A stretch of 48,013 bases of DNA, from assembly GCA_947624875.1 (NCBI GenBank), contig CANQMA010000001.1, positions 104,225 to 152,237 of the forward strand. Reading direction: 5' to 3'. Both the position numbers and the translations under genes were made by a program. The notes beneath the pieces were generated by a model, which was not told the origin of the DNA, made no database searches, and saw only the letters and a program-made list of their open reading frames with translations. The stretch is from an uncultured Lachnospiraceae bacterium (lineage in GTDB: Bacteria; Bacillota; Clostridia; Lachnospirales; Lachnospiraceae). Shown piece after piece: positions 2,340 to 46,908 of this stretch; the stretch's first letter is position 1; every line of letters starts with the position of its first letter.

Positions 2340-3746
2340 TTATACCGGATATGCACCGTTTTCCTTATCCGCCACAGCAGGATCTACTTTTGTCTGCTGT
2401 GCTTCCCGATATTCAAAAAACTCCTTTGCAACCTGTGGAAACAAAGCATACGTTAATACATCTTCATCCTGCTGTTTCCACTGTGCACACTCTTTTTCAA
2501 ACTTCTCTAAAGACGGCTCAATTAAATCAGCCGGTCTGCATGTAATTGGTTTTTCATCGCCAATCGCTTTCTTTTGAACTTCCTGATTAAACGGCTTGAC
2601 GGTCTGACCGTATTTTCCGGCAAGTAAATCTTTCGCCTGCTGATTGACCATCTTGTACCGTTCCCCCATAACGACATTCAGCACTGCCTGTGTGCCGACA
2701 ATCTGACTGGAAGGAGTGACAAGCGGCGGTTCTCCAAAGTCCTTACGAACTCTCGGAATTTCCTGAAGTACCTCGTCGAACTTATCTTCTGCACCCATCT
2801 CTTTTAACTGGGAAACCATATTGGAAAGCATACCGCCCGGAACCTGATACAAAAGCGCATTGATATCGACGCCCATAACCTTGGTACTCAAGAGTCCGTT
2901 TGCAAGACATTCTTCGCGATATGGTTTAAAGTAATCCGCTACTTTTTTCAAAAGAGTCTGGTCCAGCCCGGTATCATATTCCGTTCCCTTCAGTGTCTCC
3001 ACGATTACTTCTGTTGCAGGCTGTGCAGTTCCCATAGAGAACGGAGAAATTGCTGTATCCAAAATATCGCATCCCGCTTCTGCCGCTTTCAAATATGTCA
3101 TGGAAGCAACACCGGATGTATAATGTGTATGCAGGTCAATTGGCAGTTTCGTTCCTTCCTTCAAAGCCTGAACCAGCTCCGTAGCCTGAAATGGCTTTAG
3201 GAGTCCCGCCATATCTTTGATACAAAGGGAATCTGCGCCCATATCCTCAATCCGTTTTGCTGTCTCTTTCCAATAATCCAGCGTATATGCGTCTCCTAAC
3301 GTATAGGAAAGCGCCACCTGCGCATGGCCATGTTCTTTATTGGCAGCCTTGACAGCAGTTTCCAGATTTCGAAGATCGTTGAGGCAGTCAAAAATACGAA
3401 TAATGTCAATCCCGTTTGCGAGAGATTTCTGAACAAAATATTCCACAACATCATCGGAATAATGACTGTATCCCAGAATGTTCTGTCCTCTAAAAAGCAT
3501 TTGAAGTTTGGTATTTTTAAATCCGTCTCTCAGTTTTCTAAGTCTTTCCCACGGATCTTCTTTCAGGAATCTGAGACTTGCGTCAAAAGTCGCACCGCCC
3601 CAGCATTCCACAGAATAATATCCAACCTGATCCATGGTATCAATAATCGGAAGCATCAGTTCTGTCGGCATTCTGGTTGCAATTAAAGACTGATGCGCAT
3701 CTCTCAGTATTGTTTCGGTAATTTTAACCGGTTTTTTTTCAGCCAT
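2340..3746 (-). CDS. oadA: Oxaloacetate decarboxylase alpha / pyruvate carboxylase subunit B-like carboxyltransferase
   Basis: This is the cytoplasmic carboxyltransferase that moves CO2 between a keto acid (oxaloacetate/pyruvate) and biotin. The 468-residue protein starts with ITETILRDAHQSL. It has FRGQNILGY, RIFDCLND, CIKDMAG (the lysine at 177 matches the carbamylated-Lys position) and DLHTHYTSG (metal ligands His206 and His208), all standard for the DRE-TIM carboxyltransferase fold with a PYC_OADA domain. The fused C-terminal biotinyl domain of classical OadA is absent; biotin is carried by the separate protein at 4929-5297. GGAGG precedes the ATG. It is the last gene of a five-gene pump operon. 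Specificity for oxaloacetate is inferred from family, not proven. Confidence 0.9.
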   Translation of the reverse strand: MAEKKPVKITETILRDAHQSLIATRMPTELMLPIIDTMDQVGYYSVECWGGATFDASLRFLKEDPWERLRKLRDGFKNTKLQMLFRGQNILGYSHYSDDVVEYFVQKSLANGIDIIRIFDCLNDLRNLETAVKAANKEHGHAQVALSYTLGDAYTLDYWKETAKRIEDMGADSLCIKDMAGLLKPFQATELVQALKEGTKLPIDLHTHYTSGVASMTYLKAAEAGCDILDTAISPFSMGTAQPATEVIVETLKGTEYDTGLDQTLLKKVADYFKPYREECLANGLLSTKVMGVDINALLYQVPGGMLSNMVSQLKEMGAEDKFDEVLQEIPRVRKDFGEPPLVTPSSQIVGTQAVLNVVMGERYKMVNQQAKDLLAGKYGQTVKPFNQEVQKKAIGDEKPITCRPADLIEPSLEKFEKECAQWKQQDEDVLTYALFPQVAKEFFEYREAQQTKVDPAVADKENGAYPV

Positions 3747-33990: not shown

Positions 33991-35244
33991 TTACTTTCCC
34001 TGATGCGCGGCATCCTGTAACCCCTTAATCTGCAGTCGTTCCACCATGTGTTTTCTGGCTTTACTTTTTTCCATATCCCTTTTTATTGATTTCACCGGCG
34101 ATTTGCGGAACACCACTTTTCTGAGATATCTGCAAATCTGGTAAAACCATGCAAACGGACTCAGCCACCGATGTTTTTCCAATGCCTTCCAGTTTTGCAG
34201 TCCGAGACGCTGCAGCGATCCTGCCAGCGTGAAAATATTCCTGTTTCTATACAGGACAAGCGCGCCTTCGTCTTCTTTTTTTGCCTTTCTTCCAAAATTG
34301 CCCATTCCGATAATCGCATCCATCCAGACTCTGCACAACTGTTCGTCTGCCTTCATGCACCATGTAATTTCATTTTCAGGAAGTCCCAAATAAAGCTGGC
34401 ACATTCTGGTGAATATCATCGCTGCGTTCTCCAGTCCCGCGCGCTCTGCCAGCGGTCTGAATTTTTCCTCCCAGAAATAATCGTTCAAATTCTGATGGAC
34501 AAACATCTCCCAGTCAATGATCTGGCGAAGCCCGATTCCTTCATCTGCACCCAAGTGCTGCACGATATGTTTTAACAGAATCAGGCCATTGATTTCTTTG
34601 GGATACATCGGAAAAAGGTACTGCTCAATCCTGTTCCATTCAATATGGTCCAGTCCTTCCTGAAGCAGAGCGCAAAACGCATCTTCCGTTTCTTTATCCT
34701 GTATTCTGGACATCTCCCTGTGCAATTCAAAAACAACGCCGTTTTTCACCAGTTCAATATGATGCGCTTTCTTTTTTAATTCCAGTTCCCCTAAAAAATC
34801 CCCTTTTGCAAATGTATATCCGTTGGCAATCATTAACCGATATGACTTTTCAAAATCTTTTTCCCGAACAATAAAATCCACATCCCCCATAGTGCGGTAT
34901 TCCGGCTTTGGATATGCAACTGCCGCGCTGCTTCCTTTCAGTATCGCAGCGGGGATTTGGTTTTCTAATAACAACTGCACCAGTTCATTCTGCCCGGCCA
35001 TAATACGCGTCCAGGTTCCTACCTGATAAAAGGAATAATCCATCCATTGACTTTTTATATCAGACGGTACAGAGGATACCTTCATTACGTTCTCTATTGG
35101 GATTGCTGCAATCGTCTGATGTTTCATTTCCTCAAAGACCTGCTCCCAGTCTATGTCGTTAAAATCTTTCGTTTTCTGAACGTTTAATTCCGGAAATAAA
35201 GAAACGCTTAACAGTCGACAGATTACCTTATATTCCTGTTTCAT
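33991..35244 (-). CDS. Nucleotidyltransferase family protein (PF14907-like)
   Basis: The 417-residue protein has a nucleotidyltransferase core: LKGSSAAVAYPKPEYRTMGD followed by VDFIV gives the G-S and D-x-D motifs of the fold. HHIELVKNGVVFELHREM and a helical C-terminal half follow. This fits the 'uncharacterised nucleotidyltransferase' family PF14907. From memory, members are found beside HPr-kinase-like and PqqD-like genes, for instance in lasso peptide clusters of the paeninodin type. Here those genes are 4-6 kb upstream. ATG 35244 has GGAGAGGAT upstream. The substrate is unknown. The C-terminal end is basic (FRKSPVKSIKRDMEKSKARK). Confidence 0.78.
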   Translation of the reverse strand: MKQEYKVICRLLSVSLFPELNVQKTKDFNDIDWEQVFEEMKHQTIAAIPIENVMKVSSVPSDIKSQWMDYSFYQVGTWTRIMAGQNELVQLLLENQIPAAILKGSSAAVAYPKPEYRTMGDVDFIVREKDFEKSYRLMIANGYTFAKGDFLGELELKKKAHHIELVKNGVVFELHREMSRIQDKETEDAFCALLQEGLDHIEWNRIEQYLFPMYPKEINGLILLKHIVQHLGADEGIGLRQIIDWEMFVHQNLNDYFWEEKFRPLAERAGLENAAMIFTRMCQLYLGLPENEITWCMKADEQLCRVWMDAIIGMGNFGRKAKKEDEGALVLYRNRNIFTLAGSLQRLGLQNWKALEKHRWLSPFAWFYQICRYLRKVVFRKSPVKSIKRDMEKSKARKHMVERLQIKGLQDAAHQGK

Positions 35245-35286
35245 AGTTATCCTCTCCACATTATCTGATTTGAATGGTTTATGTTG

Positions 35287-36150: not shown

Positions 36151-36894
36151 TTATTTTTTTTCTGTCCGCACAGATTTTGACTTTCTGCCGTATCCATATC
36201 CATACTGCCCATATCGGCCATATTGACCATATTTGCCATACTTTCCGTACTTTCTTTCCGCAGTATACGGCACTCTGTTTAGGACAACGCCGAGAAGCTT
36301 GCACTGTACTCTTTCAAGCTGCTGTAATGACTGCCTGATGAGTTTTTTCGATGTAAAACCACTCCGGACAACCATCACTGCGCCATCACATAAAGCCGCA
36401 ACGAGCGCACCATCTGTTACATTAACCAATGGTGGTGAATCAATTATAACATATCGATAATCGTTTGACAACCTTTTTAGTAATTCGGCAAATCTTGGAT
36501 CTTCAAGCAGTGTACTCGGATTTTCCAGAATATTTGCAATCGGAATCATGTCGCCATTTGGAATATTTGTATTGTAAATAACTTCCTCATACTCGGCATT
36601 ACCGGACAGATAATAATCAATCCCTTTCAACTCGCCTTCAGCCTTCAGTTCATGACGCTCATTTACCCTTGAATTACGCAAATCCAAATCGAGAAATACC
36701 GTCTTAAAACCTGCTTCTGCCAGCATTTTCCATAAATGAATGGATACAAAACTCTTTCCTTCATTCGGGATACTGCTGGTCACTAAAATTTTATGGATAT
36801 TTTTTCCACAAAACTTTATATTGACCCGAAGCCGGTTTAAAGCCTCCTCTACGGCAAACGGAAGGTCATGAAATGTCACATTTAATCGGTTCAT
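36151..36894 (-). CDS. CpsD/CapB-type tyrosine kinase
   Basis: This is a bacterial tyrosine kinase (BY-kinase) that controls exopolysaccharide chain length or export with a CpsC-type membrane partner. The 247-residue cytoplasmic protein has Walker A SSIPNEGKSF (residues 40-49), Walker A' VFLDLDLRNSRV and Walker B YVIIDSPPLVNVTD. The C-terminal tail (about residues 215-240) is a run of YGK/YGQ/YGR triplets with eight tyrosines, the typical autophosphorylation cluster. It overlaps the CpsC-like gene by one base (TAATG). No cognate tyrosine phosphatase or glycosyltransferases are in the window. Confidence 0.92.
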   Translation of the reverse strand: MNRLNVTFHDLPFAVEEALNRLRVNIKFCGKNIHKILVTSSIPNEGKSFVSIHLWKMLAEAGFKTVFLDLDLRNSRVNERHELKAEGELKGIDYYLSGNAEYEEVIYNTNIPNGDMIPIANILENPSTLLEDPRFAELLKRLSNDYRYVIIDSPPLVNVTDGALVAALCDGAVMVVRSGFTSKKLIRQSLQQLERVQCKLLGVVLNRVPYTAERKYGKYGKYGQYGRYGQYGYGYGRKSKSVRTEKK

Positions 36895-37706
36895 TATTTT
36901 GCCTCCCTTCCAAACAGCAGCGCTTTTTCCGCTTCTTCTTCCTGTATAAAGATATCATTTTCCGGAATGATTGTCAGTGGAATTAAACCAAATTCATTTT
37001 CCAAATCTTCACTGTTTTTAATCGTATCGTCAGTAATATAACGAATCAGTATAATGATACAGAATACGCCTGCAAACAAAACGGCGCCAAACAGCGTATA
37101 CTTTAAGTATCCCGGCCCAACCTTTTGTTTTTCCAAGCGGCCGTACTGAACTACATTCGGCGTGCTTGTACTCATCTTGTCAGGGAGAAAATCTATCACG
37201 ACGTCCACCAGAGTATTGACAATTTCCTGCGCGTGCTCCGGGTCAATGTCCGTAGCGGTAATGGCAAGCACACGCGTATCCTCCGGATTGTCTATTGATA
37301 TTTTTGCCGCCAGCTGTTCGGCAGTCATATCCAGTTTTAATCTGTCAATCACATCATCCATCACCGGATAACTGAAAATCAATTCTTCATAATCTGAGGT
37401 TAACGCCTGCCCGATATTCAAATCCGAAAAATTGACCACAGAATCATCTGACGCCGAAACCATGTAGAGTTTCGCCGTAGACTGATAGGTGGGGTGAATC
37501 ATAAAATAAGCATACGCATTAAATAAGACTGCTCCCACGAAAAACCATAAAATAATGTAATGAATCCGGTCTAACAGAACGGCAAAAAGTTTCATTAAAT
37601 CAATTTCATCTTCATCATTTTGCGCTGTCTGAGAAACCGGCACAACATCATAATTTTCAGCCAGTAAATCCTTCTCTTCGTCTTTCCCGTTGTACTTTTC
37701 CACCAT
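36894..37706 (-). CDS. CpsC/Wzz-type chain-length determinant and kinase activator
   Basis: These membrane proteins activate the CpsD kinase and set polysaccharide length. The 270-residue protein starts with a cytoplasmic acidic segment (MVEKYNGKDEEKDLL). It has a first membrane helix (YIILWFFVGAVLFNAYAYFMI) after IDLMKLFAVLLDRIH, an extracellular Wzz domain with PTYQSTAKLYMVS and DTRVLAITATDIDPEHAQEI, and a second helix (YTLFGAVLFAGVFCIIILIRY). It ends with a short cytoplasmic tail where the kinase would dock. ATG 37706 has GGGAG upstream; an upstream ATG at 37718 touches the LCP stop. The gene order LCP-CpsC-CpsD is usual. Confidence 0.92.
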   Translation of the reverse strand: MVEKYNGKDEEKDLLAENYDVVPVSQTAQNDEDEIDLMKLFAVLLDRIHYIILWFFVGAVLFNAYAYFMIHPTYQSTAKLYMVSASDDSVVNFSDLNIGQALTSDYEELIFSYPVMDDVIDRLKLDMTAEQLAAKISIDNPEDTRVLAITATDIDPEHAQEIVNTLVDVVIDFLPDKMSTSTPNVVQYGRLEKQKVGPGYLKYTLFGAVLFAGVFCIIILIRYITDDTIKNSEDLENEFGLIPLTIIPENDIFIQEEEAEKALLFGREAK

Positions 37707-37717
37707 ATAAACTCCCA

Positions 37718-38734
37718 TCAATTTGATTTATTATAAAACAAGTCTCTGATAACCTGATTTAGACTATCCTGATTAACTATAAACGCATTGAATCCATAGT
37801 CGTCGATTATGTTCTCACCATCAATGTGAAATTCACCCAAGTCTCTGTCTTTCATCATCGCATTGCTGATGCGGCTGATATTATTTCCGGTCAGATTGGT
37901 AACCCTGTAATCTTCTAATCCCTCAAACAGAGCGAGCGCAAAGGTTTCCTCCTCTTTCGACCGTTCTTTTACAATCTCTTTCAGACCGCTCATGAAAGCG
38001 CTCTGCCGGCGCATTCTGCTTTCGTTCGTTCCATCCCCGACATTCATCCGGTCGTGAACAAAATGCATCGCCTGTTCGTCAGTCAATTTGACGGTTTCTC
38101 CCATCTTGAGCGATTTGTCCGAATCCGAAAAATCATCTTCAATCTTCACCGTCACACCGCCTACCATATGATTCACCTTTGCAATGGAATCTCTGTTCAG
38201 TGAAATATATCCGTCAATCTTCTGTCCATGCAGCAGATTTGAAACTGCGGTCACCGTATTTTCACAGCTCATTTCCAAGCCATCTCCATTTGCATGCGCC
38301 AGAGCAATCTGGACATCTGTTGTTGCCAGAACATTGCCCTTTTCGTCAAGGCTCTGCACAGCAGTAATCGTATCCCGGTCTATCGGCAAAATGGCATAAG
38401 TGTTTGCCATGCGGTCAATGACCAAAACAATCAGGACATCACACTGTCCCGTACCATCGTACTCTGTTACTTTTTTTACTTTTCCGGTATCGTCGGTCCC
38501 CATAAACAGATAGGTTTCCAAATTTGATTTGGGCGTGCATGAAACACCGCCAATCTCAACCAGATCCCGCGGCTTATGATCAGCCTTTGAGGTGGGTTGT
38601 TCCTCTCCATAATCCAGCCAGAAAAGTAATCCTCCTCCTACGATGCAGGCGACTACAAATACAATCATCAAAACAATCGTTCCCTTATGCAGTTGAAACC
38701 TTTGTCCTGATGTATATTTCTTTTTACTTCCCAT
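37718..38734 (-). CDS. LCP family (LytR-CpsA-Psr) protein
   Basis: LCP enzymes attach glycopolymers from lipid carriers to peptidoglycan. The 338-residue protein has a Lys-rich N-terminus, one membrane helix (GTIVLMIVFVVACIVGGGLLF) and an LCP domain. The domain holds YLFMGTDDTG, QCDVLIVLVIDRMANTYAIL (conserved Asp-Arg pair) and PIDRDTITAVQ; arginines in HDRMNVGDGTNESRMRRQ match the pyrophosphate-binding set. Its ATG overlaps the stop of the 41-residue membrane peptide gene (TAATG). It probably ligates the polymer whose length is controlled by the two next genes. Confidence 0.92.
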   Translation of the reverse strand: MGSKKKYTSGQRFQLHKGTIVLMIVFVVACIVGGGLLFWLDYGEEQPTSKADHKPRDLVEIGGVSCTPKSNLETYLFMGTDDTGKVKKVTEYDGTGQCDVLIVLVIDRMANTYAILPIDRDTITAVQSLDEKGNVLATTDVQIALAHANGDGLEMSCENTVTAVSNLLHGQKIDGYISLNRDSIAKVNHMVGGVTVKIEDDFSDSDKSLKMGETVKLTDEQAMHFVHDRMNVGDGTNESRMRRQSAFMSGLKEIVKERSKEEETFALALFEGLEDYRVTNLTGNNISRISNAMMKDRDLGEFHIDGENIIDDYGFNAFIVNQDSLNQVIRDLFYNKSN

Positions 38735-38919: not shown

Positions 38920-38947
38920 ATTATATCATAAATAAACTATTTTGCAA
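38920..38947 (-). promoter_or_regulatory. Promoter for the small membrane peptide-LCP-CpsC-CpsD operon
   Basis: TTGCAA (38942-38947) and TATAAT (38920-38925) are 16 bp apart on the minus strand. The -35 lies in the last codons of the S26 peptidase gene. The start site would be near 38913, about 54 nt before the ATG at 38859. A small hairpin (ATTTTGCA/TGCAAAAT) overlaps the -35. Confidence 0.6.
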
Positions 38948-39422
38948 CCTGCAAAATTTTCCTCATTAAACTGCACATTTTCTTATAGAAAAACCGAATT
39001 GGAAACGTATAATGCCAGAATCTCACATAAGTTTTATATCCAATTCCTTCCATATTAATTTTTTTTGAATTTCGATAAAACTCCGTCAAAACTCCAATTA
39101 TCATATCATCCGTTACATGTTCCTTCTGAATACAATTATCCCCACGAATGATATATTCATTCTCTTTTACCTTGATAATTCTATGTAAGATATAATTTCC
39201 ATCCTTCTTATAAAGCGGTACATCATATTTTTTCAAACGGCCTTCAAAAGGTTTTATCACAATCATATCCTGGCGGTTTCGAAGCATTGGATACATGCTG
39301 ACGCCTACGGTGGTACTTACGGAATATCCCTGCTTTTCAATCAGTTCCTCAATATTTATCGCGGCGCTGTCTGTCAGTTTTTGCTTTACTGCTGTATTTT
39401 CAATATTCATGTTTTCGCTCAT
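38937..39422 (-). CDS. S24/S26-type signal peptidase-like protein
   Basis: The 161-residue protein has the S26 catalytic motif GVSMYPMLRNRQDMIVI with Ser42, then NYILHRIIKV with His80 where bacterial type I enzymes have Lys, and IIRGDNC with Asp95. Ser-His-Asp is the SipW/archaeal (ER-type) arrangement. Unlike most signal peptidases there is no N-terminal membrane anchor; the first 35 residues are hydrophilic. The C-terminus (HYTFPIRFFYKKMCSLMRK) is basic and amphipathic and could touch the membrane. It overlaps the PqqD-like gene by ATGA. Its operon suggests it cleaves peptide leaders, but this is inference. Confidence 0.8.
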   Translation of the reverse strand: MSENMNIENTAVKQKLTDSAAINIEELIEKQGYSVSTTVGVSMYPMLRNRQDMIVIKPFEGRLKKYDVPLYKKDGNYILHRIIKVKENEYIIRGDNCIQKEHVTDDMIIGVLTEFYRNSKKINMEGIGYKTYVRFWHYTFPIRFFYKKMCSLMRKILQVAK

Positions 39423-39685
39423 TCCTCGATAAATCCTCTCTCTATCATTTGAGAAAGAAATTTCTGAACCCCTGTTTCTGCATCTTCCAAAGACACATCA
39501 TACTTTTTTACAATTTTTTCGACAATTTCTGTTTTTGAAAGACCGTCTGCCACACCATTCCAAATATCTTTTCCGGTATTATTCAGTTTTACCATGCCGG
39601 AAAAATCTTCGCTGGCTTTTCCTGTAGGAATCGCCACCGCCTGTCCCATAACTTCTCTTACTATAAATCCTTCTTTTATTTTCAA
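39419..39685 (-). CDS. PqqD-like protein (RiPP recognition element)
   Basis: PqqD-fold proteins bind leader peptides of ribosomally made, modified peptides and hand them to enzymes. The 88-residue protein has a beta-hairpin start (GFIVREVMGQAVAIPTG), then KLNNTGKDIWNGVADG and a helical half SKTEIVEKIVKKYDVSLEDA, ending FLSQMIERGFIEE. This order and length fit the family. The start is a TTG at 39685 with AGGAG 9 nt upstream. It lies between an HPr-kinase-like gene and an S26 peptidase gene, so the likely ligand is the small peptide encoded at 40648-40788. Confidence 0.87.
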   Translation of the reverse strand: MKIKEGFIVREVMGQAVAIPTGKASEDFSGMVKLNNTGKDIWNGVADGLSKTEIVEKIVKKYDVSLEDAETGVQKFLSQMIERGFIEE

Positions 39686-39746
39686 TTGTCTATTCTCCTA
39701 ATCACTTATAAATTTTATCACAATTAATTTTTCAATGCCTTCTTTT

Positions 39747-40514
39747 TTACTTTGTATTCTGTCCGATGGTCTCGTTCCATTTCTTACCTGTCATAGCCTC
39801 AAAACTGCATCGCGCCGCATCCTCTGAAATATCGCATGTGAGCAGATAAAAAGGTACACGCTCCGCCATTTTGCTAAACAAGTCAATAACCTTTAGAATT
39901 TCATCATTCCCCTGTCCAATATAAAATTGGCAAATAAAATATTCTATATATTTGCCCGGATTAATTCTTTCAACTTTGTTTTCTTTTCCCTGCTTTATCA
40001 GACATATGCCTGCCAGGGGCGCACTGGTATTAATCTGCCATCCTTCCTTGCCACACCAGGGAGCGCCATGAACATAAACGTTCTCCCCGTCGAAGGAAAC
40101 TTCCGGCTTGTCCCCGTTAATGACCTGAACCTTTTCTCCCAAATATTTTCTCCACAAAGCAATGTGGGTGGACTTTCCCGTTCCACTTGGAGCAGTGAAC
40201 ACATAAGCCTTCCCATCATATTCAATCGTGGCGCCATGCATTAACAGCATATTCTGTGAAGGAAGTCTTGATGCAATCTGATCCAGAATACAGGTATATT
40301 CAATGTAGTACTCCGGCTGTTTTTCCGTATACATGGCACTACAACGTTTTACATCTTCCCCGGTATAAGAAATTTTCATAAAATTATTCCGATCCTGAAT
40401 CGTATCTTCATCGATTCGATAATCCCGGAACATTTTTTCGATATAATTATACTGATATTCTATTTGATATTTTATTCCGGCAATTTCACAAAACAATATT
40501 TTTCTGTTTACCAA
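39747..40514 (-). CDS. HPr kinase-like protein (HprK-related)
   Basis: The 255-residue protein has LMHGATIEYDGKAYVFTAPS followed by GTGKSTHIALW; the P-loop is at residues 108-116 and the preceding His93 is characteristic of HPr kinase/PEPCK-like folds. VINGDKPEVSF gives the downstream acidic motif, and WCGKEGWQINTSAPLAGICLI is another family block. It lacks the N-terminal domain of true HPrK. Related kinases in paeninodin-type clusters phosphorylate the precursor peptide. The start is a TTG at 40514 with GGTGA upstream, directly after the stop of a 24-codon frame. It is the first enzyme gene after precursor A. Confidence 0.82.
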   Translation of the reverse strand: MVNRKILFCEIAGIKYQIEYQYNYIEKMFRDYRIDEDTIQDRNNFMKISYTGEDVKRCSAMYTEKQPEYYIEYTCILDQIASRLPSQNMLLMHGATIEYDGKAYVFTAPSGTGKSTHIALWRKYLGEKVQVINGDKPEVSFDGENVYVHGAPWCGKEGWQINTSAPLAGICLIKQGKENKVERINPGKYIEYFICQFYIGQGNDEILKVIDLFSKMAERVPFYLLTCDISEDAARCSFEAMTGKKWNETIGQNTK

Positions 40515-40589
40515 TCAATTCACCATGCCCTTCGCCATCAAAATTTCCGTTAAAGTTTTTAACTGAAAAGAAATATTTCTGTGGCTCAT
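40515..40589 (-). CDS. Possible 24-residue leader peptide before the HprK-like gene
   Basis: ATG 40589 opens 24 codons (MSHRNISFQLKTLTEILMAK, then GMVN) whose TGA stop is immediately followed by the TTG start of the HprK-like gene. This arrangement would couple translation. No strong ribosome site is seen and I find no family, so it could be chance or the decayed start of another gene. Confidence 0.3.
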   Translation of the reverse strand: MSHRNISFQLKTLTEILMAKGMVN

Positions 40590-40607
40590 TTTACCAATTA
40601 CGCAAAT

Positions 40608-40635
40608 CAGCACCACGCATAACCGCGTGGTGCTG
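40608..40635 (-). terminator. 11-bp hairpin after peptide gene A
   Basis: CAGCACCACGC and GCGTGGTGCTG form a perfect 11-bp stem with a 6-nt loop, 13 bp after the peptide stop codon. No T-run follows on the minus strand, so it is probably an mRNA-stabilising stem or partial terminator that makes peptide mRNA more abundant than the enzyme mRNA. It is identical in copy B. Confidence 0.65.
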
Positions 40636-40647
40636 TTAAAAATCTAA

Positions 40648-40788
40648 TTAGTCGTTGCCAAAGATATCTCCAACCCCAATCGTTGGGATATTTTCTTCAT
40701 CCCCTTCGCCACTATTTACAAGTGCTGTCCTTACGGAAGCGTCAATCTCAATAATTTCTGCTTCCGGATCCATATATAACTTCTTCAT
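40648..40788 (-). CDS. RiPP-precursor-like peptide A (46 residues)
   Basis: From ATG 40788 with AAAGGAG just upstream the peptide reads MKKLYMDPEAEIIEI, DASVRTALV, then NSGEGDEENIPTIGVGDIFGND. The first 24 residues are identical to peptide B at 44641-44778; the rest differs at several positions. Conserved front and variable end is the pattern of a leader plus core. It has its own near-consensus promoter. The genes downstream encode an HprK-like kinase, a PqqD-like protein and an S26 peptidase. Cys is absent, so lanthionine or sactionine chemistry is ruled out for the core. Modification is inferred. A longer frame from 40884 runs through the promoter and is rejected. Confidence 0.75.
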   Translation of the reverse strand: MKKLYMDPEAEIIEIDASVRTALVNSGEGDEENIPTIGVGDIFGND

Positions 40789-40855
40789 TACTTCTCCTTT
40801 CACATTGCCATCTGTCTTAGATTGCAAAACTCTATGACCCGTCTTTCCGGATTTT

Positions 40856-40884
40856 ATTTTATTCGAAACTGTACTGTTTGTCAA
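40856..40884 (-). promoter_or_regulatory. Near-consensus promoter for peptide A
   Basis: TTGACA (40879-40884) and TAAAAT (40856-40861) are exactly 17 bp apart on the minus strand. The start near 40849 would give a leader of about 60 nt before ATG 40788. The -35 overlaps the stop codon of the 37-codon frame. It is the best promoter in the window and is duplicated in copy B. Confidence 0.82.
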
Positions 40885-40994
40885 CCTATTAAATCTCCAT
40901 AGTTGCCATCATCTTCACTTTTCACAATCAAACCGATGGGTTTTATCTGTTCTATTTCGATAATATCCATTTTTGCTTCTTCATAAGGTTCCAT
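40881..40994 (-). CDS. 37-residue peptide, copy A, related to the precursor leader
   Basis: ATG 40994 opens a frame reading MEPYEEAKMDIIEIEQIK, then PIGLIVKSEDDGNYGDLIG, stop. GGAGAGGG lies 13 nt before the ATG, longer than ideal. The early part contains IIEIE, close to IIEID at the same place in the 46-residue peptide, and both are acidic with a Gly-rich end. It lies 25 bp after the stop of the large secreted protein, so it would be made from that gene's mRNA. An identical copy is at 44871-44984. Its role is unknown; a second substrate or partner peptide is possible. Confidence 0.5.
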   Translation of the reverse strand: MEPYEEAKMDIIEIEQIKPIGLIVKSEDDGNYGDLIG

Positions 40995-41019
40995 TTCCGT
41001 ACAATTTCCCTCTCCGTTA

Positions 41020-43728
41020 TTATGCTTGAACGCTTACCGGGCTTCCATCTCCCGGAACTTTAAAGGTTTTTTGTGTTCCGGTTACTACGGCTCCATCCTC
41101 TGTAGTCCAGTAAGGGGTAACTTTCCATGTGTAAGTTGTTCCTTCGCTCATTCCATTAATCGCATATGCAAAGAAGTAACTTGATTGGTCGGAGAAGGTA
41201 TTCAGTTCAACAGACTCACCGTTTGCGTTCAATGAACTAAATACGGAATTTAATTTTAAATCTACTGTTGCGTTCTTGCTGCCATTGTAACCTTCTACCT
41301 TAAATCCTAAGCCATCGTAGTTCAGGTTGTCTACTGTGCTGACAAATCTAATGGATGTGTTATCCTCTGATACCTGTGCTTTAACATCTAATACTTTTTC
41401 ATCGATGAATTTCGCATATGCGCCTTTTCCTGTATCTGAATCTCTATCATATGGTGTGTTAAACTCCGAATCTAAATACCAGCCTGCAAAAATTGTTTCA
41501 TCGCCTTTATCCGGATACGTCGTATTATCTTCTAAATACTCTGCCAAATCTCCCGGCGCATAGTAATTTTCACCTGAAGTTCCCATTTCAGAACCGTAAA
41601 TAGCAATTTCATAAATGGAGTAACCATAGTTTGTAGTTCTTGCAGTACCAAGAATCTTTACATACTTCGCTTCCACTGGTTCTTTAAATACAATTTTGTC
41701 AAGTCTGTTTGCTCCGGCTGCTGCTTCCTTAACCGTAGCTGCTACATGATACTGAGAACCATCTGTTGAAACCTGAACAGTATAGTCCTTCGCATTTGCA
41801 GTCTCCCATACTGAATTAATTTCTTTGACCATATAAGCCTTGTCCAAAATAACCGTAAGCTCCTGTGGGTCAGACTGTTCAGATTCCCATCTGCTTCCTC
41901 CATCATTATCAATAGCATTATTTGCATTACCTGATGATGCTTCTGCGGTAACCCCTTCATTTCTTACAAGGTTTTTTCCATTTTCATTTTCATTGTCGAA
42001 AACTCTTGCGTCATTACTTCCCTCAGTTGTTGAACTCTCATAACTGAAACCTGAAGTAACCGTAACGTCTGTAACCTCAAGAGGTTCTGAATAGAAACCT
42101 TGATATACAGATTCTACTGATACCGTATGCGTTCCTTCACTGACGCCTTCAATAACATAATCTCCTGCCTCAATCTCTTGCAGCACAGGTGTTCCATCAA
42201 CATATACCGTATATTTATAATCTTCCTGATCAGCACCTGCTGTAATCTTACCGGTAATCGTATTATAAGAATTTGATTCCGCTGTAAAATCTGCAGGAGG
42301 ATTTACGGTTACTGTTTCTGCTTCTTCAAGATCTCCATCGGTATCAAATACTGCAATTTCTCTAGTCTGTATGCCCCATCCCGGTCTTGTTGCATTATAG
42401 ATTCTTACATATCTTACCGGAGTTGTAGTATCAATGTCCACACTGACACCAAATGCAGTTTCATTTGGTGTTCCTGCCGCACTGGCTTCACTTCTGATAT
42501 CGTCTCCGGCCTTTGTGGCAACCGTCATCCAATTTGTACCGTCTACTGAGAATTGAACATCAAAACCACTACCAACAGGTAACAAATCTACACGTGTATC
42601 TCTAAACCAAATTGCTACCTGGTCAATCGTTTCGCCTTTATATGTTTTATCTAAATCAATAACAAAATAATTTGCCCCATTCGGTGGGGTGGCTCTATCC
42701 ACATTGCCAGCTGCATATTCAATACTTCCGTCTGTGATACTTCCGGTTCCCTCAGAAGAATTTACATGTTCCTTGCTTTCATCATTTTCGATATACCACG
42801 TTTTATTTAATGCAACATTATATTCCGGATTTGCCACCATTTCTTCAGGTGTCAAAGAACCATCACTATCAACAGTTACCTGTGTCGTGACTTCATTTGA
42901 CGCTACATAAGTTTCATTGTCATATGCCAGTACTTTTAAAGTATGTTCTCCCTTTGAAAGATTCTCATATGTAGTACCGGATACTGCATCTGTATCAAGA
43001 ACTGCATCATCAAGCAATACAACAACTGTTGTATTTTCTGCTTTTGTAAATGTTACTGTTAACTTGAACGGTTCGTTACTTTGACCGTCTACAGTTGTAG
43101 GGGCTGTCGGCGTTACTACTTCTGCCGGTTCAGCGGCTCCTGCATCATTAAAGATAGCAATTTCCTCAATCTGTGTACCATAAGTAACTGGTGGATAGGA
43201 AAGTTTCACATAACGTACCGTTGTAAGTGTGGATTCCTGGTCAGCCATCGTCAACTCATGGGTCATATCTCCATTCTGTCCATCTTCCATAATCTTTGGA
43301 TCAACCGTTTTAGCTGTCTTGAAAACGTATGGATTGTTAGAGTACTCTACTGTATATCCGGTGTTCATTGGTGAAGTATTTACTACTTCTCCGCCTGTAT
43401 TATGATATACGGTAACAATCCGATCAATACTATCAACACAATAGTAATCACCCAGGTCCACAACAAACCAGCCATCCTGATTGTGAATTGTGTCAATAAA
43501 ACTATTTGTCGCATTACCATCTGTCAAGACACTTAAATTACTGCCCGCACCTTCATTTGTGGTGCCGCTCGCTGTAACAGTTTTCCCATATGCAAGATTG
43601 TAACTATCATCTTGAATATTTTCTAAATCTGCCGCCTTAACTGTTGTATTGTTGTAAACTGTGATTGAAGTAGCAATCATAGCCACAGACAAAACAAAGG
43701 AAAGGACTTTTTTCATTGATTGTTTCAT
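41020..43728 (-). CDS. Secreted protein with three discoidin-like domains
   Basis: The 902-residue protein has a signal peptide (MKQSMKKVLSFVLSVAMIA, cleavage near VKAAD at 30-34). It has three F5/8 type C-like domains (each begins N-L/V-A-x-G/N-K or NLVRNEG and ends with VRYVKL, VRYVRIY or AKYVKIL plus EIAIF/EIAVF/EIAIY). Beta-sandwich linkers lie between them, with one 'FAGWYLDSEFNTPY' InlB-like repeat and a final 133-residue domain identical to that of the protein at 45010. Discoidin domains usually bind glycans. No catalytic domain, LPXTG or C-terminal membrane helix is seen. ATG 43728 has AGGAGG upstream at slightly long spacing. Confidence 0.83.
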   Translation of the reverse strand: MKQSMKKVLSFVLSVAMIATSITVYNNTTVKAADLENIQDDSYNLAYGKTVTASGTTNEGAGSNLSVLTDGNATNSFIDTIHNQDGWFVVDLGDYYCVDSIDRIVTVYHNTGGEVVNTSPMNTGYTVEYSNNPYVFKTAKTVDPKIMEDGQNGDMTHELTMADQESTLTTVRYVKLSYPPVTYGTQIEEIAIFNDAGAAEPAEVVTPTAPTTVDGQSNEPFKLTVTFTKAENTTVVVLLDDAVLDTDAVSGTTYENLSKGEHTLKVLAYDNETYVASNEVTTQVTVDSDGSLTPEEMVANPEYNVALNKTWYIENDESKEHVNSSEGTGSITDGSIEYAAGNVDRATPPNGANYFVIDLDKTYKGETIDQVAIWFRDTRVDLLPVGSGFDVQFSVDGTNWMTVATKAGDDIRSEASAAGTPNETAFGVSVDIDTTTPVRYVRIYNATRPGWGIQTREIAVFDTDGDLEEAETVTVNPPADFTAESNSYNTITGKITAGADQEDYKYTVYVDGTPVLQEIEAGDYVIEGVSEGTHTVSVESVYQGFYSEPLEVTDVTVTSGFSYESSTTEGSNDARVFDNENENGKNLVRNEGVTAEASSGNANNAIDNDGGSRWESEQSDPQELTVILDKAYMVKEINSVWETANAKDYTVQVSTDGSQYHVAATVKEAAAGANRLDKIVFKEPVEAKYVKILGTARTTNYGYSIYEIAIYGSEMGTSGENYYAPGDLAEYLEDNTTYPDKGDETIFAGWYLDSEFNTPYDRDSDTGKGAYAKFIDEKVLDVKAQVSEDNTSIRFVSTVDNLNYDGLGFKVEGYNGSKNATVDLKLNSVFSSLNANGESVELNTFSDQSSYFFAYAINGMSEGTTYTWKVTPYWTTEDGAVVTGTQKTFKVPGDGSPVSVQA

Positions 43729-43762
43729 AATATGTTCTTCCTCCTCGATAATTATGACTATT

Positions 43763-43791
43763 ATTATATCAAACAAAAAAAGCCTTGACAA
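43763..43791 (-). promoter_or_regulatory. Promoter for the discoidin protein gene
   Basis: TTGTCA (43786-43791) and TATAAT (43763-43768) are 17 bp apart on the minus strand, 35 bp before ATG 43728. The -35 and spacer are formed by one arm of the preceding terminator stem, so promoter and terminator overlap. Confidence 0.7.
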
Positions 43792-43846
43792 CATCATAAA
43801 CTAATAAAACAAGTTTTTTCAAAACGCTAAAATCAAGGCTTTTTTT
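43775..43846. terminator. Long-loop bidirectional terminator
   Basis: AAAAAAAGCCTTGA (43775-43788) and TCAAGGCTTTTTTT (43833-43846) pair perfectly over 14 bp with a 44-nt loop. It lies 94 bp after the stop of the membrane protein at 43941 and before the discoidin gene. The long loop is unusual for a terminator. Confidence 0.7.
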
Positions 43847-43940: not shown

Positions 43941-44552
43941 CTATCCAAACAGTTCGCCATAATCACTGTCATCTGTCAAAATTTTAAACCCTCCCCGATT
44001 GGACTCTGCCGTTGTCTTTTCTTCCTTCTTGTCAGATGATTTTGTCTCGCTATTTTCGTTTTTATCGCTTTTGTTCGTGGTAGACGTTTCTTTTTTTGAC
44101 GTTTTATCTTCCTGATTTAGATTCTGCGCCCCACCCTGGTTGTTAGAATTATCAAAAAAGTCATCTGCATCCATACTGTTACCCACACCATTTGATTTAT
44201 CTGATTTATTTGATTTGTTTGAATTATTTGAATTATTTGATTTGTTTGAATTATTTAAATTATTCTTTGTCTCTTCGTCTGAACCATCATCCTTCAACGC
44301 ACTGTTTTGTCCATCATTTGCTGAATCTGTTGAAGTATTTTGTCCGCTATTTTTTTCTTCATTATTTGGCAAAACACTTCCATTTTCATCAGTCACCGCC
44401 GGAGTTTCACTTCCTGTATCAAATTCAGTGGTCTGTTCCTGATCTGCAGAACTGTTTTTTTCTGATTTTCCCATCCATAAAGTAATTGCAAAAATAATTA
44501 CGGCTAATAAAACCACTATTCCCACAATAATATATATTTTATCTCTTTTCAC
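43941..44552 (-). CDS. Single-pass membrane protein with Asn/Ser/Lys-rich domain
   Basis: The start is best placed at the GTG at 44552, with GGAG 8 nt upstream, giving 203 residues; ATG 44558 adds two residues but has poor spacing. A short basic start and one helix (IYIIVGIVVLLAVIIFAITLW) are followed by a long low-complexity outside region rich in Asn, Ser, Lys, Asp and Thr, with a core of NNS/NKS triplets. It ends FKILTDDSDYGELFG, a compact acidic motif. It is the first gene after peptide B, where copy A has the HprK-like gene. No family is recognised. It may act as a surface spacer or receptor. Confidence 0.65.
   Translation of the reverse strand: MKRDKIYIIVGIVVLLAVIIFAITLWMGKSEKNSSADQEQTTEFDTGSETPAVTDENGSVLPNNEEKNSGQNTSTDSANDGQNSALKDDGSDEETKNNLNNSNKSNNSNNSNKSNKSDKSNGVGNSMDADDFFDNSNNQGGAQNLNQEDKTSKKETSTTNKSDKNENSETKSSDKKEEKTTAESNRGGFKILTDDSDYGELFG
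44190..44263. repeat. 9-bp tandem coding repeats
   Basis: Degenerate 9-bp units of the type TTTGAATTA/TTTGATTTG repeat about eight times. On the minus strand each encodes Asn-Asn-Ser or Asn-Lys-Ser. Such repeats change length easily by slippage without shifting the frame. Confidence 0.75.
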
Positions 44553-44600
44553 TGTCATTTCTCCATAATTTTCATTGATGTTTTTATCAATTACGCAAAT

Positions 44601-44628
44601 CAGCACCACGCATAACCGCGTGGTGCTG
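44601..44628 (-). terminator. 11-bp hairpin after peptide gene B
   Basis: Same perfect CAGCACCACGC/GCGTGGTGCTG stem and 6-nt loop as in copy A, 12 bp after the stop of peptide B. No T-run follows on the minus strand. Confidence 0.65.
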
Positions 44629-44640
44629 TTAAAAATCTAA

Positions 44641-44778
44641 TTAGTCTTTAAAAATATCGCCAGCATCAATCGTTGGGATATTTCCGTCATTTCCTTCGCC
44701 ACTATCTACAAGCGCCGTCCTTACGGAAGCGTCAATCTCAATAATTTCTGCTTCCGGATCCATATATAACTTCTTCAT
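44641..44778 (-). CDS. RiPP-precursor-like peptide B (45 residues)
   Basis: From ATG 44778 (AAAGGAG upstream) the peptide has the same first 24 residues as peptide A and then DSGEGNDGNIPTIDAGDIFKD. Compared with A it keeps SGEG, NIPTI and GDIF, and changes N to D at 25, D to N at 30, GV to DA at 38-39 and GND to KD at the end. Two silent changes lie just before the split point. It is followed by a membrane protein gene rather than kinase/PqqD genes, so any enzymes would act in trans from the copy A operon. Confidence 0.75.
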   Translation of the reverse strand: MKKLYMDPEAEIIEIDASVRTALVDSGEGNDGNIPTIDAGDIFKD

Positions 44779-44845
44779 TACTTCTCCTTTCACATTGCCA
44801 TCTGTCTTAGATTGCAAAACTCTATGACCCGTCTTTCCGGATTTT

Positions 44846-44874
44846 ATTTTATTCGAAACTGTACTGTTTGTCAA
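44846..44874 (-). promoter_or_regulatory. Near-consensus promoter for peptide B
   Basis: TTGACA (44869-44874) and TAAAAT (44846-44851) are 17 bp apart, identical to the copy A promoter, with the same leader of about 60 nt. Confidence 0.82.
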
Positions 44875-44984
44875 CCTATTAAATCTCCATAGTTGCCATC
44901 ATCTTCACTTTTCACAATCAAACCGATGGGTTTTATCTGTTCTATTTCGATAATATCCATTTTTGCTTCTTCATAAGGTTCCAT
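44871..44984 (-). CDS. 37-residue peptide, copy B
   Basis: Identical in DNA and protein to the frame at 40881-40994, again 25 bp after the stop of a large secreted protein and overlapping the -35 of the peptide promoter. Because both copies sit in the identical block, their conservation is not independent evidence for coding. Confidence 0.5.
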   Translation of the reverse strand: MEPYEEAKMDIIEIEQIKPIGLIVKSEDDGNYGDLIG

Positions 44985-45009
44985 TTCCGTACAATTTCCC
45001 TCTCCGTTA

Positions 45010-46830
45010 TTATGCTTGAACGCTTACCGGGCTTCCATCTCCCGGAACTTTAAAGGTTTTTTGTGTTCCGGTTACTACGGCTCCATCCTCTGTAGTCCAG
45101 TAAGGGGTAACTTTCCATGTGTAAGTTGTTCCTTCGCTCATTCCATTAATCGCATATGCAAAGAAGTAACTTGATTGGTCGGAGAAGGTATTCAGTTCAA
45201 CAGACTCACCGTTTGCGTTCAATGAACTAAATACGGAATTTAATTTTAAATCTACTGTTGCGTTCTTGCTGCCATTGTAACCTTCTACCTTAAATCCTAA
45301 GCCATCGTAGTTCAGGTTGTCTACTGTGCTGACAAATCTAATGGATGTGTTATCCTCTGATACCTGTGCTTTAACATCTAATACTTTTTCATCGATGAAT
45401 TTCGCATATGCTTTTCCTGATTTTTCTGTATATGGAGTTGTATATCCAGGGTCGCTATACCAGCCTGCAAAAAGTTCACCTTCACTTGTAGGAACGTCTT
45501 TCTGATAGTTTGAAACCTCTAAGTATCCTGCGGCAGATTCTGCAGCTTCCTGACTGTCATAAGTGGTCAGGCTGACATTTTTAAACTCAATCGTACTTGC
45601 TGCTACCGGCCCATATCCGTCTATATATCCATAGCAAATATCAAAAACACCTGTTCCAGCAGCACTCGAAGTTGCCTGGAAAATATATACGATTTGCGTT
45701 TCTTCATCTGCTTTAACGGAATAATGCTGGAATCCTTCATTATAATTTGTCCAATTTGCACTATTCTGAAATCTCATCTGAATTGTACGGTCAATACTGC
45801 TAAGCACTGTGCAGGATGCTTTATACCACGTACCTTCCTGAATAGTCAAACCTTCCAGCTTGTATTCTGTATCTTGATATGCCCACTGATTATTGTCGCC
45901 TGCTTCACTCCGTTCCGGCGCAGAAATTTGTCCGCTATTCTGCTTTTCTACCGGAACCAGTTCTTTCGTTTCCTGACTTTCTCCACCCGGCGTTGTTGGT
46001 TCCGTTGATGGATCCTCACCATCTGTTCCATTGATATTCTGGATTGTGATTGTTGCTGTTCCTTGGGCATGTACGATTTGTACTGTGTTTATCTTTTTAG
46101 TCAAATATGACAGGTATACACATGCGCCCGCTCCTTGAATACCATTATCATTATCATCAGTCTGTACTTTTCCGTTAACAATCACTTGGCTTATACCCGA
46201 ACTAACAGAAATATAGATACCTTGTTCAGTCGCGAATGCCGGTTGCTGAATACCTACAAGACTAAAACCGTCTCCTTTCTCATAAGAAAAACCTTGCCCT
46301 ATCTCTGTCCAACTATGACCTGAAGGGTCCGTCTGTTTTTCTGTTGTTTCAGGTTCCATACCCGGTTCGTAAGTTCCCTTACCCGAATTACCAGGACAAT
46401 GGATAACTACTTTTACATGTCCCATAGAGGATGTAATATCTAATATGTTATATTCATATATTAACATATTCTGTACATCTCTAAAGAAGAGACCAGCTCC
46501 TTGCTTCTCTCCTTCAATTCCATTAATTTTACCAACCAAACCCACATCTGTATGTGCTGTAACATAGAGTGTATTTCCCTCCTGATACTGAAATACATTA
46601 AATGAATATTCTTGAATAGATGTAGAATTTTCTAAAAGAGCCCATGTACTTCCTTTTAAATTGTCATAGTTAATCCCCCCATCGTTAGCAACTGTACCAG
46701 TATAATCAAGATTTGAGTAATCGTCAGCCGCCTTAATGGAAGATGCCTTGTAAATCGTAAGACTTCCTACAACCATAGCAACAGCACATATGTAAGCTAT
46801 TGCTTTTTTCATTGTTTTACTAAGTTTCAT
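45010..46830 (-). CDS. Secreted beta-rich protein with CBM-like region and shared C-terminal domain
   Basis: The 606-residue protein has a signal peptide (LSKTMKKAIAYICAVAMVVG, cleavage near IKAAD). Two similar beta domains of about 110 residues follow (GEKQGAGLFFRDVQNM and NGIQGAGACVYLSY are equivalent blocks), then a Pro/Glu/Thr linker and a carbohydrate-binding-module-like domain (EGTWYKASCTVLSSIDRTIQ, VSLTTYDS). A 'FAGWYSDPGYTTPY' repeat leads into the 133-residue C-terminal domain identical to that of the protein at 41020. There is no LPXTG or membrane anchor. ATG 46830 lies 11 nt after GGAG; ATG 46839 is the alternative. No enzyme motif is seen. Confidence 0.8.
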   Translation of the reverse strand: MKLSKTMKKAIAYICAVAMVVGSLTIYKASSIKAADDYSNLDYTGTVANDGGINYDNLKGSTWALLENSTSIQEYSFNVFQYQEGNTLYVTAHTDVGLVGKINGIEGEKQGAGLFFRDVQNMLIYEYNILDITSSMGHVKVVIHCPGNSGKGTYEPGMEPETTEKQTDPSGHSWTEIGQGFSYEKGDGFSLVGIQQPAFATEQGIYISVSSGISQVIVNGKVQTDDNDNGIQGAGACVYLSYLTKKINTVQIVHAQGTATITIQNINGTDGEDPSTEPTTPGGESQETKELVPVEKQNSGQISAPERSEAGDNNQWAYQDTEYKLEGLTIQEGTWYKASCTVLSSIDRTIQMRFQNSANWTNYNEGFQHYSVKADEETQIVYIFQATSSAAGTGVFDICYGYIDGYGPVAASTIEFKNVSLTTYDSQEAAESAAGYLEVSNYQKDVPTSEGELFAGWYSDPGYTTPYTEKSGKAYAKFIDEKVLDVKAQVSEDNTSIRFVSTVDNLNYDGLGFKVEGYNGSKNATVDLKLNSVFSSLNANGESVELNTFSDQSSYFFAYAINGMSEGTTYTWKVTPYWTTEDGAVVTGTQKTFKVPGDGSPVSVQA

Positions 46831-46879
46831 AATAACCATATCTCCTTTCAATGAGAACTTACGCTCATATTTATTAATT

Positions 46880-46908
46880 ATTTTATCATTCCTTCTATTT
46901 TCTTGCAA
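46880..46908 (-). promoter_or_regulatory. Promoter for the 606-residue secreted protein gene
   Basis: TTGCAA (46903-46908) and TAAAAT (46880-46885) are 17 bp apart on the minus strand, 50 bp before ATG 46830. A pair of 20-bp direct repeats lies 18 bp upstream of the -35. Confidence 0.65.

Follow-up and report, generated by a model that had tools for sequence, protein, structure and literature searches.

The window, as we call the whole stretch of DNA analyzed here, comprises 48,013 nucleotides of an uncultured Lachnospiraceae bacterium (GenBank assembly GCA_947624875.1, contig CANQMA010000001.1, positions 104,225 to 152,237). Its minus strand, on which all features named below lie, carries what we read as a ribosomally synthesized and post-translationally modified peptide (RiPP) system that makes phosphopeptides after the fashion of the linear polyphosphorylated peptides (LPP) and is tied to surface proteins; we put the probability of this reading at about 0.7. 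At its center are a 46-aa precursor peptide (40648..40788), an HprK-like, LppK-like kinase of 255 aa (39747..40514), an LppB-like PqqD-type RiPP recognition element (RRE) of 88 aa (39419..39685), and a soluble S26/SipW-like peptidase of 161 aa that resembles the leader peptidase LppS (38937..39422). A first-pass annotation had placed these four genes correctly and proposed a candidate undescribed RiPP-like system. The RiPP-like part is borne out by a YxxP leader, a conserved Ser, and the company of PqqD-type protein, kinase, and S26 peptidase. The biochemistry can no longer be called undescribed, because the steps that the annotation envisaged fit a published family with the same enzyme set, as the accessible part of PMC13381572 describes it.

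That family, published in May 2026, is encoded by lppA-K-B-S-D-N in Paenibacillus alginolyticus. LppK, LppB, and LppS act with LppD and LppN, and the product is a linear peptide whose core Ser3 carries several phosphates; LppB binds the YxxP leader, LppS acts with LppB to remove it, and catalytic mutants of LppS are reported (PMC13381572, accessible part). The window shares with it a SipW-like Ser-His-Asp leader peptidase, a discrete PqqD-type RRE, a putative HprK-like kinase, and a nucleotidyltransferase gene nearby, along with a YxxP leader in its 46-mer and 45-mer, a Ser early in the core, no detectable cyclase, and capsule genes close by. From its sequence the window thus looks to work in an LPP-like way, although a tree of RRE fragments gives no clade placement, and by the same kind of evidence it represents a variant, found in Lachnospira, to which the LPP definition drawn from Bacilli does not fully apply.

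The enzymes appear intact. The PqqD-type protein reaches 52.8 bits in Pfam, where the cut-off is 23.4, and when its single sequence is searched against the PDB the sole match at E up to 0.1 is 9x8z (E 0.0044), which is LppB with leader (PMC13381572, accessible part). The peptidase matches TIGR02228 at 5e-8, below the curated cut-off. As the first-pass annotation had it, this is a Ser-His-Asp enzyme without an anchor: Ser42, His80, and Asp95 are invariant in 20 aligned sequences, and no hydrophobic stretch was found (best 19-aa mean 0.43). For the kinase, the best NCBIfam matches, ScmC (1.3e-7) and HprK-related kinase A (1.1e-4), both fall below their cut-offs; its P-loop (SG-GK-TH), DKP, and PW-G motifs are invariant in 23 aligned sequences. 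The window has GDKP where other kinases have DDKP, and we rejected the idea of a catalytically dead kinase because neither the second Asp nor the Lys varies among those 23 sequences. In a wider set the Asp of DKP is kept, and Arg takes the place of Lys in L101 and L104.

The 46-aa peptide is a genuine gene. Its leader motif reads YMDP; it has no Cys and, in agreement with the first-pass annotation, its own promoter-like site (TTGACA-17-TAAAAT, 40856..40884, read from 40884 to 40856), with 11/12 matches. Scanning 8.1 kb gave 36 sites against 27.0 +/- 4.5 in shuffles; only three of them reach 11/12, and two of the three belong to the two copies of the peptide cassette. A hairpin follows the gene (40608..40635) in a form kept in relatives: the fold comes from an alignment of eight loci and the second window copy, and five of its 13 pairs are changed on both sides in some sequence. 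This hairpin lies outside the terminator-like calls (4 sites, 4.8 in shuffles) and lacks the T run that the scan requires. Just upstream lies a second precursor-like peptide of 37 aa (40881..40994) with YEEA in place of YxxP, so that the locus holds two precursor types, the long 46/45-mers and the short 37-mer.

Among the assemblies of the named collection, those closest by kinase are from Lachnospira and rumen “Eubacterium,” and we grouped the loci of the genus, by neighbors and score, into our own types A, B, and C, with type A defined by ten kinases at E below 1e-70. A precursor peptide lies 5' of the kinase in all nine genus genomes that have a type A kinase and upstream sequence. In the same nine loci the best promoter-like site 5' of the long peptide shows 9-11 matches and sits 40-67 bases before the ATG (a count made without a shuffled control), and a hairpin follows the long peptide. 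Across the genus and other Clostridia, 19 of the 21 precursors listed have a Ser at +18 to +21 after the motif Tyr or Phe (shuffle mean 6.6, maximum 14 in 20,000), a range that was chosen after the sequences had been viewed; the other two are the window 37-mer (+22) and L047 (+23). The 21 include both long peptides of the window and three similar ones from genomes that we label “eligens-like,” whose peptides end GWTGLY or GWTGLF, and leave aside L038-L040, L042, and repeated copies. Since Ser stands at +18 to +21 in these 19 precursors and at +18 in LPP, we predict from the sequence analysis that Ser26 of the 46-mer is the candidate phospho-acceptor and that the leader would be cut near residues 21-24. 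Outside the genus, a short, leader-bearing open reading frame (ORF) lies beside the kinase or PqqD gene in L086, L048, L047, L095, and L103. In the last of these a 38-aa YSDP peptide (L103:4981-5097) lies 5' of the kinase, and no PqqD or S26 gene was found in 12 kb there.

The tie to the surface begins with a protein that the first-pass annotation did not list. A single-pass membrane protein with a low-complexity linker (43941..44558) ends in DDSDYGELFG, and the 37-mer ends in DDGNYGDLIG. Single-pass or lipobox-type proteins of this kind occur in 9 of 23 genus genomes at E<1e-30, and the short precursor (E<1e-10) is found in exactly those nine, all of which have a type A kinase; at these thresholds every other genome lacks both proteins. 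Most of the nine supplied rows for the two models, so presence is partly by construction, and absence from the remaining genomes is therefore the informative half. The tenth genome with a type A kinase, G156, has its locus cut by a contig end and a membrane protein gene that looks broken by eye.

The tails of the two proteins match lineage by lineage. Giving the membrane protein first and the short precursor second, the pairs read YGELFG and YGDLIG in the window, WGPLE and WGPLE in G153, FGPII and FGPII in G166, FGPLI and FGPLI in G150, and GEDNTDEGYIDW and GEDNTEPDWNDW in G151. Pairing each tail with its partner from the same genome is the best of 120 arrangements for these five lineages and the best of 5040 for seven, when the eligens-like G163 and G164 are added; the own partner is best or tied in six of the seven rows. 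Taken singly, the five type A pairs have their own score reached by 0, 59, 0, 0, and 1 of 2000 shuffles. For these comparisons the near-identical L038-L042 counted as one lineage (L041), as did G161 and G163 (G163); genomes without both peptide and membrane protein were left out, and the tails and their lengths were picked after viewing. Of 39 shared tail residues, 16 use the same codon, where 18.0 would be expected (7 pairs with one lineage counted twice, codon usage taken from three window genes), and the likeness is thus maintained at the protein level, since codon identity is not above chance. A match produced by recent DNA duplication is rejected overall by the same codons, although the pair in G151, with 6/7 codons shared, may be recent. 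In G153, G150, and G151 the core of the long peptide is likewise similar to a segment inside the membrane protein.

Some further tails were noted in passing. One small contig of G165 (L164:101-691, 3159-3569) encodes a secreted-type protein whose end, NGDGDDITKLIGNP, is like that of the long cores, along with a membrane protein that ends EDEGWSPIVTPDDLKD. In G164 (L195:931-1790), a precursor-like ORF ending ADWGDW adjoins the gene of a membrane protein that ends DDGWTPIVKP; the stretch seen there contains no kinase. We also considered a second half-motif in the peptides of the eligens-like genomes, which proved not significant (437 and 176 of 2000 shuffles). In loci from other genera, L086, L089, L092, L048, and L045 have a lipoprotein or membrane protein gene ahead of the kinase, and L095 has one ahead of its PqqD gene.

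The other link to the surface is a rare domain. Two secreted proteins are encoded next to the peptides, one of 925 aa with F5/8 type C domains (41020..43797) and one of 632 aa (45010..46908), and their alignment shows a common C-terminal domain (about 41023-41469 in the former). This domain occurs in 11 of 23 genus genomes and in 10 of the 11 that have a type A system (Fisher p 1e-4); the exceptions are G156, at its contig end, without the domain, and G161, with the domain and no type A system. When the seven genomes that gave rows to the model are dropped, the figures are 3/4 against 1/12 (p 0.027). Across the family, 4 of 150 genomes carry the domain, all within the 39 that are kinase-positive (p 0.004; 0.016 without the window's own genome). 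All of these p values are given without correction for kinship. In G078 and G130 the domain lies within some 10 kb of kinase, PqqD gene, and peptide on the same contig, and in G051 it is on other contigs. The domain is not a strict C-terminal sorting signal, an idea we rejected on finding 7 of 19 remote copies internal; four secreted proteins of eligens-like genomes were tested and gave no match to the domain model.

The peptides are also present twice. A duplicated block (40595..41421 and 44588..45411) includes a second copy of the precursor, 45 aa long with a diverged core (44641..44778), a copy of the promoter-like site 5' of it (44846..44874), and an identical second 37-mer (44871..44984). 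The copies are the same over about 0.8 kb except for codons 21-45 of the long peptide: the 633 bases 5' of its ATG and the first 62 bases of the gene are identical, 13 substitutions and one codon then differ, and the next 59 bases are identical again. The simplest reading is one of cores that differ in age within flanks homogenized by gene conversion. Such a pattern is to be expected of a precursor with a constrained leader and an unconstrained core and is no proof of selection; we do not claim positive selection alone, because 5 of the 13 substitutions are synonymous and gene conversion fits as well. The repeat exceeds short-read length, and an assembly effect may play a part. Eligens-like genomes have paired cassettes, too, with near-identical cores.

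How, then, might the system work? We infer leader binding, phosphorylation, and cleavage because the proteins are homologous to tested LPP proteins and the Ser is conserved. The PqqD-type protein would bind the YxxP leader of the 46/45-mers and their orthologs, the kinase would phosphorylate, probably several times, the Ser about 20 residues after the Tyr (Ser26 in the 46-mer), and the soluble peptidase would remove the leader near residues 21-24 to leave a product that is presumably linear. The shared acidic-aromatic tail would then be a binding motif present on both a free phosphopeptide and the cell surface, and its most likely partner would be the rare domain of the secreted proteins of carbohydrate-binding type encoded around it. 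A bolder version, which we would give only a small chance, is a display system: the membrane protein would hold a docking tail on the cell, the nucleotidyltransferase would join the LPP peptide, with the same kind of tail, to exopolysaccharide through (poly)phospho-Ser, and the rare domain would dock on both.

A number of observations weigh against an LPP-like phosphopeptide system tied to the surface. In LPP the Ser stands at +18 after the Tyr within the motif YxxPxVLxHQxIxFETxxS (PMC13381572, accessible part); the precursors here lack FETxxS, the Ser is shifted (+20/+21 in the long peptides of the window), and the 37-mer lacks the Pro of YxxP. In LppB the leader Tyr is held by Asp70, a residue that LPP systems strongly conserve (same source); it is replaced by Gly in the window and by Gly or Ser in seven of the nine type A RREs compared, whereas the other 16 Lachnospiraceae or Clostridia RREs in the alignment have Asp there. 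Among the listed genus precursors only those of G153 and G166 have Phe for the leader Tyr, and both genomes have Ser at RRE position 70. The Asn of LppB that kinks the leader (PMC13381572, accessible part) is kept (Asn33 in LppB, Asn35 in the window), which counts in favor of the reading. A profile of the RRE group scores the lasso proteins TbiB1 (40.9 bits), PbaB1 (37.1), and TfuB1 (35.8) above LppB (29.2). On the surface side, the membrane-protein model also has weaker hits, with E from 1e-3 to 1e-9, in six more genomes, the tail pair of G164 is no better than chance, and that of G153, with its 59 of 2000, is weak on its own. The likeness of long core to internal stretch fails in the window and G166 (926 and 304 of 2000), and own-genome pairing for this comparison ranks 8 of 120. 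Tail mimicry outside the genus is a candidate that we found unsupported (absent in L048, L086, and L047, weak in L095 at 49/2000). Lastly, the 19 domain copies fetched away from type A loci divide into 12 C-terminal and 7 internal; this count takes one domain per ORF, omits L086 and L226, and covers 18 of the stretches fetched rather than all copies listed.

Lasso peptides offer one alternative. On this account the peptides become lasso or otherwise cyclized RiPPs through a cyclase encoded elsewhere in the genome, and the assembly (1.79 Mb, 73 contigs) is only 84% complete. The leaders do resemble the Lachnospira lasso leaders MK-W--P---EEL-I-ETAQ given in the accessible part of PMC7533575, the RRE scores noted above lie nearer lasso RREs, and kinase, PqqD-type RRE, nucleotidyltransferase, and leader logic are all shared with paeninodin-like phosphorylated lasso systems. 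The window differs from these in Tyr for the leader Trp (YxxP for WxxP), in Asn35 for Gly in its RRE, and in the lack of a B2 peptidase and of any cyclase found. We searched the window's own assembly for PF13471 and PF00733, and no lasso candidate emerged: the PF13471 leader peptidase is absent from those 84%, and both Asn_synthase genes start MCGI like ordinary AsnB. The cyclase search did not extend to the relatives, and we consider this account highly improbable. Within the window, Pfam runs on 42 proteins turned up no family of cyclases, of radical SAM, YcaO, or LanM-type enzymes, or of ABC transporters, which upholds the first-pass statement as to the first four, and the sole Asn_synthase protein among the 42 carries a GATase domain. 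SynChlorMet (TIGR04249/TIGR04248) offers a fainter likeness: the kinase resembles ScmC as given above and the PqqD-type protein ScmD (3e-4), at 31 of 125 and 20.9 of 100 bits, far below the cut-offs. SynChlorMet cassettes contain radical SAM genes, which have no counterpart among the 42 proteins.

It could instead be that the trio serves capsule or exopolysaccharide control and that the peptides are bystanders or expression attenuators. Wzz, CapB, and LytR-CpsA-Psr genes follow the trio in the window, Wzz and CapB precede it in 5/7 type B loci, and the type B and C loci have no convincing precursor. Yet in 9/9 assessable type A loci there are peptides that keep the Ser and have a promoter-like site, and no capsule gene adjoins the trio in 6/7 loci compared (L040 is cut) and in L105; we hold such a capsule role to be very unlikely. 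Nor do we give much credit to the peptide as a bacteriocin or signal with the membrane protein as an immunity or receptor-blocking partner that mimics the core. Such a pair would share genomes, as the membrane protein and the short precursor do, and both are missing from G170; the tail copies the core lineage by lineage, and cores diverge inside an otherwise identical duplicate. On the other hand, G159, G161, G163, G167, and G169 have a similar membrane protein (tail GWTDFY or GWSDLY) beside a gene judged asd-like by eye, and the surrounding stretch seen in these five genomes shows no precursor; nor would this account explain the tie to the domain on the secreted proteins. G161 and G163 also carry peptides ending GWTGLY or GWTGLF. 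Finally, the tail might do no more than let one shared enzyme of export or trimming recognize both proteins, with no binding function of its own. Its place at the extreme C-terminus of both proteins suits this; its variation between lineages in step within a genome speaks against it, as a genus-wide enzyme would presumably not require that, and we see this explanation as unlikely.

The kinase family reaches well beyond type A. It occurs in 22 of 23 genus genomes, 19 of which have two or three copies. In the syntenic ortholog of the window, G170, the gene order is kept without kinase, membrane protein, and short peptide, and long peptide, PqqD, and S26 genes remain; a kinase encoded at a different place in the G170 genome could serve in trans. 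Type B loci (L004, L116-L119, L123, L124) have kinase and PqqD genes beside an ABC-transporter-like gene, with S26 in 6/7 and the Wzz and CapB genes upstream in 5/7. Type C loci (L108-L115, L122) have kinase and PqqD genes, S26 in 7/9, and in all nine shown a similar AAA ATPase-like gene upstream (DUF815 in the one run against Pfam). A leader-pattern scan of these 16 loci gave three matches, none adjoining a kinase, and no convincing precursor. The first-pass annotation had bound the trio to such peptides. That holds in 9/9 type A loci, but the trio is not everywhere tied to them, because 13 of the 16 type B and C loci hold the full trio with no convincing precursor. One type B locus, L004, is a paralog in the window's own genome, with an ABC transporter recognized by eye, and at a third PqqD match of that genome (L005) neither kinase nor S26 is among the ORFs shown. 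As side observations, L098, L100, L101, and L104 have kinase and PqqD genes, joined by S26 in three of these loci, next to a gene that by eye looks radical-SAM-like, and they encode longer peptides with starts of MKKEW--P type, some of which contain Cys; L107 (G171) has its trio in the order PqqD, S26, kinase beside a gene that looks AMP-ligase-like.

To place the parts in transcription order, the upstream half of the region runs from the 632-aa secreted protein through the 37-aa peptide, 45-aa peptide, membrane protein, and 925-aa secreted protein to the second pair of 37-aa and 46-aa peptides; the downstream half continues with kinase, PqqD-type protein, S26-like peptidase, LytR-CpsA-Psr, Wzz, CapB-like protein, a 217-aa secreted-type protein, and the nucleotidyltransferase. 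The last of these (NTP_transf_5, LppN-like, 33991..35259; PF14907, 8.7e-36) lies 3.7 kb downstream of the trio on the same strand. The first-pass inventory of four genes was sound as far as it went and missed this enzyme, the 37-aa peptide, the second copies (44641-44984), and the membrane protein. The capsule-type genes for CapB-like (AAA_31), Wzz, and LytR-CpsA-Psr proteins lie between peptidase and nucleotidyltransferase (36151..38734, by Pfam). The CapB-like protein (36151-36894) has a C-terminal Tyr/Gly repeat, YGKYGKYGQYGRYGQYGYGYG, and such repeat tails are usual for tyrosine kinases of capsule loci. The remaining window genes are housekeeping genes by Pfam.

As for the literature, our search of titles and abstracts in open PMC returned no second LPP paper and none on the tail match, a search on Scm names returned unrelated papers only, and the terms kinase, HprK, and S26 are absent from PMC7470986. 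None of the terms Lachnospir, Clostridi, lipoprotein, membrane protein, and transmembrane appears in the accessible main text of the LPP paper (PMC13381572). What separates the window from that system, apart from Ser position, FETxxS, and Asp70, is the lack of an MsbA-like transporter among the 42 proteins run against Pfam, the two precursor types with their tandem copy, the tail-matched membrane protein, and the rare domain. As far as their accessible text goes, none of the papers searched describes the 37-aa peptide and the tandem copy of both peptides, a membrane protein with a lineage-by-lineage copy of the short precursor's end, or the rare domain on neighboring secreted proteins.

Members of Lachnospira are pectin users of gut and rumen. 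The analysis shows LPP-like gene sets in Lachnospiraceae, and, with the biological role of LPP stated as unknown in the accessible part of PMC13381572, the tail copy and the rare domain are concrete partners with which such a role can be tested. If the display reading were true, the cell would decide between a membrane and a matrix seat for its secreted proteins, and one locus would serve several scattered clients.

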